From: Phycisphaeraceae bacterium | GTDB lineage: Bacteria > Planctomycetota > Phycisphaerae > Phycisphaerales > Phycisphaeraceae | Direction of reading: 5' to 3' | DNA: 64,000 nucleotides | NCBI GenBank assembly: GCA_002686995.1 | Contig: NYZC01000333.1 | Location: 1-64,000 of the forward strand | In this document: positions 13,086 through 51,944 of the stretch, piece by piece | How positions within the stretch are numbered: the first letter of the stretch is position 1 | How the letters are laid out: each line of letters begins with the position of its first letter | The notes under the pieces: model-generated | Seen by the model: only the letters and a program-made list of their open reading frames with translations | Databases searched by the model: none | Told to the model about the DNA's origin: nothing | Position numbers and translations under genes: made by a program

Positions 13086-13293
13086 GCGGGAGCAGGTTTC
13101 GGGGTCCGGGGTCCGGGAATCTCAGGATTCAGAGTTCAGGGGGATCGCACGCGCCTTCGGCTCGCCCGGCAGGATTCGCGACGCGGGGACGACCTCTGAA
13201 CTCTGAGCACTTCTTAAGATAATCGGACGGCAGGGATCAGGTCATTGATGTAACCCGCCCGGGCCGGAACCGGCCGGACCGATCGCGAGGGTC

Positions 13294-24440: not shown

Positions 24441-25274
24441 CTACTCGGCTTCCGCCTGGAGGTCCTTGCTGCGATGGTTGAGCTGCGCCTTCAGCCGGGC
24501 CAGGATCGAGCTGTGCATCTGGCTGACGCGCGATTCGGAAAGGTCGAGCGTGACCCCGATCTCCTTCATCGTCATCTGCTCGTAGTAGTAGAGGATGACG
24601 ATGAGCCGCTCGGCGCGGCTGAGCCCCTGCGTGATCAGGTTCTTGAGGTCGCGGCGCTGCACGGCCGACAGCGGATCGATCTGCTTGCCGTCCTCGAGCA
24701 CGTCGATCTCACGGACGTCCTTGTTCGAATCGGTCTCGTACCACTTGCGACTGAGCGACACGACGCCGACGGCGCCCGCGTCCTTCTTGATCTTCGCGTA
24801 CTCGTCCTTCGACACGGCCATCTTCTCGGCGATCTCGTCATCCGTCACCACCCGGCCCAGCTGCATCTCCAGGCTCTTGCGCGCCGTCTCGACCTGGCTC
24901 GACCGGGACCGGACCAGCCGCGGCACCCAGTCCATTGCGCGCAGCTCGTCGAGAATCGCACCGCGGATGCGCGGCGCGCAGTAAGTCTCGAACTTGACGC
25001 CGCGCGTGAGATCGAATGCGTCGATGGCGTCCATCAGGCCGAAGATCCCGGCGCTCATGAGGTCCTCGATGTCGACCTCGTCCGGGAGCTTCGCGTGAAT
25101 GCGCTCCGCGTTGTACTTGACGAGGTTGAGGTATCTCTCCATCAGGCAGTTGCGCAACTCCTCCGTCGCGTTCTTCTTGTAGAGGGGCCACAACTCCGCA
25201 ATGTCCATGCCGGCGTGATTGCCGGTCTTGACTCGGGCGGCGGGCCTTTTCTTAGCGACGCTCGTTTTCGCCAT
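24441..25274 (-). CDS. fliA: RNA polymerase sigma factor, FliA/WhiG type
   Basis: DLMSAGIFGLMDAIDAFDLTRGVKFETYCAPRIRGAILDELRAMDWVPRLVR; C-terminal MTMKEIGVTLDLSESRVSQMHSSILARLK; SD AAGGAG upstream. Confidence 0.92.
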   Translation of the reverse strand: MAKTSVAKKRPAARVKTGNHAGMDIAELWPLYKKNATEELRNCLMERYLNLVKYNAERIHAKLPDEVDIEDLMSAGIFGLMDAIDAFDLTRGVKFETYCAPRIRGAILDELRAMDWVPRLVRSRSSQVETARKSLEMQLGRVVTDDEIAEKMAVSKDEYAKIKKDAGAVGVVSLSRKWYETDSNKDVREIDVLEDGKQIDPLSAVQRRDLKNLITQGLSRAERLIVILYYYEQMTMKEIGVTLDLSESRVSQMHSSILARLKAQLNHRSKDLQAEAE

Positions 25275-25361: not shown

Positions 25362-25387
25362 GCCGAATCACGGAAGAGCAAGCCTCG

Positions 25388-25464
25388 ACACCTTCAAGAC
25401 ACCTTCAAGACACCTTCAAGACATCTTCAAGACACCTTCAAGACATCTTCAAGACACCTTCACG
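25388..25464. repeat. 11-bp tandem repeat, 7 copies
   Basis: ACACCTTCAAG x3, ACATCTTCAAG, ACACCTTCAAG, ACATCTTCAAG, ACACCTTCACG. Confidence 0.95.
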
Positions 25465-30402: not shown

Positions 30403-30451
30403 ATCAGAACTCAGAAACTGAATCGCAAATAAGAATCAGGAATCAGGAACT
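30403..30451 (-). repeat. Degenerate heptad leader of flhA
   Basis: Coding strand ...GTTCCTGATTCCTGATTCTTATTTGCGATTCAGTTTCTGAGTTCTGAT|TTG. Confidence 0.5.
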
Positions 30452-32342: not shown

Positions 32343-32600
32343 TCAGGCGCCCCCGGCGAACATGCGCTGGGCGAACTCCATGATCATCTTGCCGATCCAG
32401 GGCATCACGGTGATCGCGATGACGCCCATGCCGAGAATCTTGGGTACGAAGCTGAGAGTCTGCTCCTGGATCTGCGTCGCGGCCTGGATGATGCTGATGA
32501 CTAGGCCGATGATGAGCGCGGCGATGAGGATGGGCGCGCTGACGACGAGCATCACCGTGAGCGATTCGCGGACGAGGTCAGTAGCTTGATCAACGTTCAT
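32343..32600 (-). CDS. fliQ: Flagellar export protein FliQ
   Basis: 85 aa; LVRESLTVMLVVSAPILIAALIIGLVISIIQAATQIQEQTLSFVPKI. Confidence 0.95.
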   Translation of the reverse strand: MNVDQATDLVRESLTVMLVVSAPILIAALIIGLVISIIQAATQIQEQTLSFVPKILGMGVIAITVMPWIGKMIMEFAQRMFAGGA

Positions 32601-32656
32601 GGGGTCTGGGATCTAGGGTCTGGGGTCTGGGGTCCGGGGTCTGGGGTCTAGAGTCC
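32601..32656 (-). repeat. 8 x 7-bp tandem repeat directly abutting fliQ start codon
   Basis: + strand GGGGTCT GGGATCT AGGGTCT GGGGTCT GGGGTCC GGGGTCT GGGGTCT AGAGTCC; coding strand (AGACCCC)n-ATG. Confidence 0.95.
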
Positions 32657-32670
32657 GAAGAGCCATTCGT

Positions 32671-32702
32671 GTTCATCCGTGTCCATCCGTGTCCATCCGT
32701 GG
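32671..32702. repeat. 10-bp tandem repeat CATCCGTG family
   Basis: GTTCATCCGT GTCCATCCGT GTCCATCCGT GG. Confidence 0.9.
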
Positions 32703-32740: not shown

Positions 32741-33601
32741 CTATCCGGCTCCGGGCACCGAGAAGCTTGCGAGCAGGTTGCCCGCCACGAGGTGCCAGCC
32801 GTCGACGAGCACGAACATCAGAAGCTTGAACGGAAGGCTGATCAGGACGGGCGGCAGCATCAGCATGCCCATGCTGATCAGCACGCCGGCGACGACCATG
32901 TCGATGATCAGGAACGGCAGGTAGATGCGGAACCCGATCAGGAAAGCGACCTTCAGCTCACTCAGCACGTACGCCGGGATGAGTGTCAGCATGTCCACGT
33001 CGCCGTAGCGAAGCTCCTCCGGCGCCTTGTGGATGCCGCGGTAATCCAGAATCATGTGGACGTTCGACCAGTTGTCCGCGTAGTCGATCTGGCGAAACAT
33101 GAACGCGCGCAGCGGCTGCTTCGCGGCGTTCCAGGCCTGGATTTCGTTGATGGTCCCGTCCTGAAGCGGCGTGATCGCCGTGTCGTTGATCTGCTTGAAC
33201 GTCGGTCCCATGATCATCAGCGTCATGAACAGCGCCAGCCCGGTAAGCACCTGGCCCGGCGGCAGCGACTGCGTCCCGATCGCCTGGCGCAGCAGCGCGA
33301 GCACCACGACGATCCTGGTGAAGCTCGTGCACAGGACGAGCAGTGCCGGCGCGACGGACAGGATCGTCAGCAGCAGCAGGATCGACATCGTCGCGGGCAT
33401 GCTGCCGCCCGCCTCGAGCCCCTCCGCGTCCTCTTCGGCGCGCATGCTGTCGAGCAGCGTCGACGCACCGCGCACGACGCCGAACGGATTGGCAAGATCG
33501 GTCACGACCTCCGTCTTCGCGTCGTCGGCGCGCAACGGCGGTGCCGCAAGCAGAACGACCGCCGCGGTCAGCATCAGCGGCAACGCGCGGGCGGCGTTCA
33601 T
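32741..33601 (-). CDS. fliP: Flagellar export protein FliP
   Basis: ILLLLTILSVAPALLVLCTSFTRIVVVLALLRQAIGTQSLPPGQVLTGLALFMTLMIMGP. Confidence 0.96.
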   Translation of the reverse strand: MNAARALPLMLTAAVVLLAAPPLRADDAKTEVVTDLANPFGVVRGASTLLDSMRAEEDAEGLEAGGSMPATMSILLLLTILSVAPALLVLCTSFTRIVVVLALLRQAIGTQSLPPGQVLTGLALFMTLMIMGPTFKQINDTAITPLQDGTINEIQAWNAAKQPLRAFMFRQIDYADNWSNVHMILDYRGIHKAPEELRYGDVDMLTLIPAYVLSELKVAFLIGFRIYLPFLIIDMVVAGVLISMGMLMLPPVLISLPFKLLMFVLVDGWHLVAGNLLASFSVPGAG

Positions 33602-37534: not shown

Positions 37535-37562
37535 GGCGAGTCACGAATAACGAGTCACGAGT
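37535..37562 (-). repeat. 4 heptads abutting flbD start codon
   Basis: GGCGAGT CACGAAT AACGAGT CACGAGT (+ strand). Confidence 0.75.
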
Positions 37563-37564
37563 CG

Positions 37565-39340: not shown

Positions 39341-39372
39341 ACCACGGATGAACACGGATGGAAACGGATGGG
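39341..39372. repeat. 10-bp tandem repeat, inverted copy of the CATCCGTG family
   Basis: ACCACGGATG AACACGGATG GAAACGGATG GG; reverse complement matches 32671-32702. Confidence 0.85.
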
Positions 39373-42124: not shown

Positions 42125-42173
42125 AGGGATCAGGGTCTGGGGCCTGGGGCCTGGGGCCTAAGGTTCAGGGTCG
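42125..42173 (-). repeat. 7 heptads abutting fliJ start codon
   Basis: + strand AGGGATC AGGGTCT GGGGCCT GGGGCCT GGGGCCT AAGGTTC AGGGTCG. Confidence 0.93.
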
Positions 42174-42255: not shown

Positions 42256-42276
42256 GAACACTGAACACTGAACACT
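42256..42276. repeat. 3 x GAACACT heptad near fliI stop
   Basis: GAACACT GAACACT GAACACT. Confidence 0.9.
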
Positions 42277-42285
42277 GAGCACGTC

Positions 42286-45510: not shown

Positions 45511-45552
45511 ACCGAATCAAACACCAGGAATCAGGAATCAGGAATCAGGAAT
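45511..45552 (-). repeat. Heptad array in fliG leader (4 exact CAGGAAT copies)
   Basis: ACCGAAT CAAACAC CAGGAAT CAGGAAT CAGGAAT CAGGAAT; coding strand (GATTCCT)n. Confidence 0.92.
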
Positions 45553-45565
45553 CGAACAACTCAAC

Positions 45566-51722: not shown

Positions 51723-51840
51723 CCATGACCCTTCCGCAAGCGGAGCATCCGCGCCGGGCTCGATCCATCGGCCCGGGGAACGACGCTGGAGTTATCGGCT
51801 ATTTGTCCCCGACGTCCTCAATCATTCGCAGAAGGTTCAG

Positions 51841-51870
51841 CGCATCCCAGCGCATCCCAGCGCATCCTAT
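51841..51870. repeat. 10-bp tandem repeat, 3 copies
   Basis: CGCATCCCAG CGCATCCCAG CGCATCCTAT. Confidence 0.9.
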
Positions 51871-51944
51871 TGATACGAGAATCCGTCAAGGAGATATGCC
51901 CCCACCCCTCCTTATGAACGGGGGACTTCGGAGCCCCGATCCTG

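Follow-up and report, generated by a model that had tools for sequence, protein, structure and literature searches.

The fliQ leader array

The 64,000-nt stretch of contig NYZC01000333.1 analyzed here (a Phycisphaeraceae bacterium; referred to as the window) carries the genes fliP and fliQ on its minus strand. The gap between them ends in a tandem array of heptanucleotide units (heptads) directly in front of the fliQ start codon (Table 1). An original prediction, made from the letters alone, had read this leader as eight heptads in exact register with the ATG and as lacking a Shine-Dalgarno (SD) motif. The repeat is real and does end at the ATG: the period-7 tract spans positions 32600-32656, i.e., the A of the start codon also continues the period, and Tandem Repeats Finder (TRF) reports period 7 with 7.1 copies and 86% matches. 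The exact register, on the other hand, is trivial, since any period-7 tract abutting an ATG provides it, and the outermost unit (GGACTCT) is degenerate. The missing SD was borne out.

On the fliQ coding strand the array is C-rich (AGACCCC-like), such that the + strand, which opens the gap with TGGGGTCTGGGATCTAGGGTCTGGGGTCTGGGGTCCGGGGTCTGGGGTCTAGAGTCC, is G-rich (GGGGTCT). This G-rich strand has its 5' end at the fliQ start and its 3' end 85-91 nt off the fliP stop. It shows seven GGG tracts within 50 nt, where at least four G-tracts are asked of a putative quadruplex-forming sequence. Part of the remaining gap is occupied by an array of the decamer CCATCCGTGT.

The fliQ start call is right, given that the first Met aligns with position 1 of nearly all orthologues: in 30 orthologues from the same family, the aligned part opens with residue 1 or its neighbor, and the codon there is ATG. 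Heptads precede this ATG in about 3 of the 30 and are absent in about 27, and several of the array-free leaders carry an SD-like GGAG. At family distance, the fliQ leaders of genomes G015 and G028 show other C-rich heptad-like tracts, while that of G011 has AAAAGTT-like heptads further upstream.

Heptad arrays in the window genome

The window belongs to a planctomycete-like metagenome-assembled genome (G000) of 7.8 Mb in 446 contigs, estimated as 88% complete with 5.5% contamination. We sampled 1.3 Mb and later 1.87 Mb of it, where 1.42 Mb of the latter stem from contigs picked irrespective of any motif. Another 20 contigs were chosen for holding GGGTC arrays, which enriches the sample for this one motif. 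Genes were called with a codon-model script, and some of its start calls are wrong.

Arrays like that of fliQ are confined to spacers, come in many interchangeable units and sit with the G-rich strand's 5' end at whichever gene edge is closest, be it a start or a stop. In the first sample, 63 period-7 arrays are intergenic (44.6 per 100 kb) vs. 4 in coding sequence (0.3 per 100 kb), and period 7 ranks top among periods 4 to 16. At the same threshold, no period-7 array turned up in order-3 Markov sequence five times as long as the intergenic DNA. About 39 distinct units are found in the G000 sample, with AAGGTCG (16 arrays) and ACCCCAG (7 arrays, to which fliQ belongs) accompanied by 37 more. 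GGG is absent from 61 of the 149 arrays counted. Units are lineage-specific, e.g., GAAGGTC has 180 matches in G000, yet it is found in only 2 of 391 other genomes of the phylum, which is too few to repeat the orientation analysis reported below for this non-GGG unit.

Some arrays also reach into genes. Those at G000:C169:3434, G000:C93:14376 and G000:C212:2566 enter the 3' end of a gene by 8-22 nt and supply its TAG stop, and the three genes thereby gain repeat-coded C-terminal residues. Leaders and C-termini in such genomes can be repeat-derived, which affects start-site calling.

Starts, stops and shared motifs

The original prediction had tied the arrays to translation starts. We compared abutment with a random placement of the arrays inside the same gaps: a stop is at most 1 nt away for 10 arrays (2.1 expected) and a start for 6 (2.0 expected). 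That is, stop abutment is at least as enriched as start abutment. The same holds locally, where the stops of fliI, flhB and a flgE-like gene are abutted, and of the window's seven arrays three are nearer a stop than a start while a fourth is about equidistant. Similar arrays had also been announced for other leaders; those of fliJ, fliG and flbD were found, but the hlyD leader has 2.6 units and the PIG-L leader about two.

Nor did the phase preference appear that had been set as a test: no unit, phase or sequence register is common to the starts. Leaders with an array are indeed poor in SD-like motifs (1/30 vs. 283/875 elsewhere), but this is attributable to the C-rich array filling the SD window.

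These results bear on the idea of a dedicated initiation element that would bring ribosomes to the start of fliQ, and to others like it, independently of an SD. It would fit the fliQ array, which ends at a conserved ATG without SD, the near-general lack of SD in array leaders, and the TAACTGA heptads that precede starts in Maribeggiatoa (PMC4679880). Given that stops are abutted at least as often, that starts share neither unit nor phase, and that the shared ATG is used without any array in some 27 of the 30 fliQ orthologues, we regard such an element as very unlikely; as a general function it is largely refuted.

A common GAYYC core had been proposed as well. It is enriched among the distinct units (11/39 vs. 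2.5 expected from shuffles) but occurs in only 24 of 85 arrays, and the fliJ array consists mostly of AGGCCCC, which lacks it. Together with the regular spacing, the enrichment would fit an array bound by a protein that recognizes DNA or RNA. Such a protein would have to accept about 39 different units within one genome and, at one locus, a full unit turnover between sister species, such that we consider this reading highly improbable.

Orientation relative to gene edges

The G-rich strand has its 5' end at the end nearer the gene edge in 108 arrays vs. 22 with the opposite orientation, counted over four genomes (among them G000 66:10, G015 27:7, G035 14:5). Restricted to G000 contigs picked without the motif, the ratio is 29:9 (p=0.0017). 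Arrays of period 8 show the same polarity (15:2), while it was not seen for periods 6, 9, 11 and 12. The arrays' 5' end lies within 6 nt of a gene in 40 cases compared to 10.9 expected from random placement, the 3' end in 5 cases. Beyond the array ends, the in-phase match is 0.367 on the 5' and 0.317 on the 3' side. The fixed orientation toward the nearest gene is a real regularity, i.e., a polarity of the DNA.

Separated by gap type, polarity is 60:12 for co-directional, 28:1 for convergent and 20:9 for divergent gaps. The convergent result arises neither from initiation nor from start mis-calls, since there is no start codon in these gaps and stops are independent of start calling. Quadruplex capacity was considered as the sole cause of the polarity and rejected because units without GGG comply as well (38:8).

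Expressed on the coding strand, arrays within 15 nt of starts are C-rich (18:1) and those within 15 nt of stops are G-rich (22:4). This is what selection at the mRNA level might produce, where C-rich heptads would be tolerated or helpful before starts (unstructured and friendly to ribosomal protein S1), G-rich heptads after stops (RNA quadruplex or 3'-end protection), and the opposite orientations purged. The generally C-rich bases -5 to 0 of genes, the absence of strong folding in the fliQ leader (z=+1.09) and the small reliance of planctomycetes on SD (PMC5397173) are in accordance with it. It requires, however, one rule for starts and another for stops, when a single rule at the DNA level is enough, and polarity peaks in convergent and is lowest in divergent gaps. 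Furthermore, polarity extends to units without GGG tracts, and the fourfold abutment excess does not obviously follow from purging alone. We thus rate mRNA-level selection as a rather unlikely source of the polarity.

Conservation and spread

For the genus of G035, we compared sister species at four loci, which were chosen because G035 has arrays there. Where sister species are compared, array position is mostly kept while the unit changes. Upstream of obgE, C-rich heptads or heptad-like tracts are present in 6/6 species with units AGACCCC, GATACCC-like and GTACCCC/GATCCCT; after the HPr stop, arrays occur in 5/5 sister species with GGTCTGG, GTTGGGG, GATCGGG and GGGTCCG/GGGATCT. The galE locus carries an array in G035 alone (1/6 species), and the G-rich last galE codons of the sister species (GGGTATGGGGACGGG) look like a seed of it. 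The persistence of position is also a point in favor of mRNA-level selection.

About 50 nt upstream of obgE (loci L334-L339), on the far side of the C-rich heptads, most species of this genus retain a second set of A/T-richer heptads (GTTAGCC ATTAGCT GTTAGCT).

The variety of flanking genes speaks to a further reading, in which the fliQ array is a contingency (phase-variation) locus with unit number tuning fliQ expression. Tandem repeats right before a start can tune expression, as PMC4679880 cites for Moraxella uspA2. But such arrays are also found next to functionally unrelated genes (obgE, HPr, galE), and Rehm et al. deemed this role unlikely for their own repeats (PMC4692102), such that there is little to recommend it and we give it hardly any weight.

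We also scanned GTDB genomes for GGGTCTRGGGTCTRGGGTC. Among the matches listed, loci are found in Planctomycetota, Verrucomicrobiota, Acidobacteriota, Pseudomonadota, Bacteroidota, Cyanobacteria, Actinomycetota, Omnitrophota, Sumerlaeota, archaea and others. When gene calling was trained on loci of comparable G+C, the polarity within these matches was 43:15, and 23:1 for arrays within 15 nt of an edge. In an earlier test on the listed matches, which used crude greedy open reading frames (ORFs), the polarity did not exceed a trend (27:16, p=0.13).

Interpretation

We consider it very probable that the fliQ array is one start-side member of a genome-wide set of intergenic heptanucleotide simple-sequence repeats (SSRs), which are maintained by slippage, rather than a signal dedicated to translation initiation. 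Replication slippage would generate arrays from short G-tracts at the edges of genes and homogenize them, while steps of 7 bp would be eliminated from coding DNA because each of them alters the reading frame. Spacer confinement, 7-bp steps and unit homogeneity would thus result from slippage at edge G-tracts combined with selection against frameshifting growth. Growth or retention would have to be strand-polar, i.e., the array may extend from the gene edge into the spacer, 5'-3' along the G-rich strand. For fliQ, the array takes up the position that an SD-bearing leader has in many orthologues; what is left is a start without SD, which planctomycetes tolerate. Among the suggestions of the original prediction, it is the slippage-generated spacer that gains support, with slippage as a process that we infer.

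Several points weigh against this reading. Plain slippage alone does not explain the strand polarity, and unit decay or divergence within arrays gives no clear polarity signal. Random windows in array-free gaps are weakly polar as well (58-62%), therefore composition contributes. Finally, the persistence of position across species divergence could reflect selection for function.

In addition to slippage, the polarity requires growth or retention that is itself polar, a bias in the seeds, or selection acting on RNA. The data rather favor a cause at the DNA level. Tentatively, and with more doubt than confidence, we propose a strand-polar DNA process that is independent of unit sequence and gene direction: heptad arrays would grow from, or be retained at, the edge facing their G-rich 5' end in many bacterial phyla and some archaea, with units turning over.

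Further repeats in the window

The features of the fliQ locus and the remaining arrays of the window are compiled in Table 1, where the names flhA and flhB were assigned by gene order.

Table 1. Genes of the fliQ locus and tandem repeat arrays of the window (window positions).
Feature	Position	Strand	Remarks
Heptad array before fliQ	32601..32656	-	about 8 units, most with GGG tracts
fliQ, 85 aa	32343..32600	-	Pfam Bac_export_3/FliQ, E=1e-27; ATG conserved in family orthologues
fliP	32741..33601	-	Pfam FliP, E=3e-73; upstream gene; far end of the gap is set by its stop
Decamer array CCATCCGTGT	32663..32701		TRF; separate repeat class in the same gap as the fliQ heptads
Heptads CAGGAAT x4.1	45525..45553		55-nt fliF-fliG gap; 14 nt to fliG start, 12 nt to fliF stop
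Heptads GGGGCCT	42133..42159		8 nt ahead of fliJ start; C-rich on fliJ coding strand
Heptads GAACACT	42256..42282		3 nt past stop of fliI-like ATPase; 131 nt from fliJ start
Imperfect heptads, CGAGTCA-like	37543..37563		8 nt before flbD start; 1 nt after flgE-like stop
Short heptads GAATCAG x2.4	30433..30449		3 nt from flhB stop; 30 nt from flhA start
Short heptads CGGGGTC x2.6	13100..13117		14 nt ahead of HlyD-like start

Besides heptads, the decamers ACACGGATGG/AACACGGATG are present at 32663-32701 and 39344-39371 and are the commonest period-10 units of the sampled genome; the decamer core CACGGATG reaches about 93 per Mb. The 11-mer GACACCTTCAA (6.9 copies, 25387-25462) lies in the spacer adjoining a sigma-70 family gene (24441-25274, minus strand), and three exact copies of the decamer CAGCGCATCC (51834-51873) are found in a gap between called genes.

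Comparison with known repeat systems

Intergenic heptad SSRs are a known kind of repeat. In cyanobacteria, short tandemly repeated repetitive (STRR) heptanucleotides are found in spacers, and the arrays reported here resemble them in both respects, compared by description only. A literature search on heptads in planctomycetes gave no specific hit. Mrazek et al. (2007), as summarized in PMC4679880, described long SSRs with units of 5-11 nt, among which heptanucleotides are commonest and for which slippage was proposed. The dominant class agrees with our observations and the proposed origin with our interpretation; theirs is a genome statistic, and the summary gives no position rule relative to gene edges.

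The TAACTGA direct repeats of Maribeggiatoa (MacGregor 2015, PMC4679880) likewise place heptads immediately before start codons where SD is rare. In contrast to our arrays, which use many units and flank starts and stops alike, they consist of a single unit that is strongly start-directed (147 of 170 sets toward a start, 12 toward a stop). The 39 units from the G000 sample do not include TAACTGA.

Closest are the G-rich heptamers GGGNATC and GGGGA(C/T)T from Xanthomonas and Nostoc, for which Rehm et al. (2015, PMC4692102) found no function. Their G-rich strand is antisense where it precedes an ORF and sense where it follows a stop, and lies nearer to the 5' ORF. Both sets share the over-representation of 7-bp tandem units in non-coding DNA, the geometry of the G-rich strand, which the fliQ array fits, and positions that relatives keep while length and sequence vary (here from obgE and HPr, where all compared species have tracts, to galE and fliQ, where few do). 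They differ in that our arrays use GGGGTCT and about 38 further units, of which many lack GGG, and in the full unit turnover between sister species and the planctomycete host. The analysis removes the tempting but wrong reading as a new translation-start element and puts a testable rule on the placement of spacer repeats in its stead. This rule, so far described for Xanthomonas and Nostoc, is now extended to a planctomycete family, dozens of units and many phyla, including units without the G-tracts required for quadruplexes.
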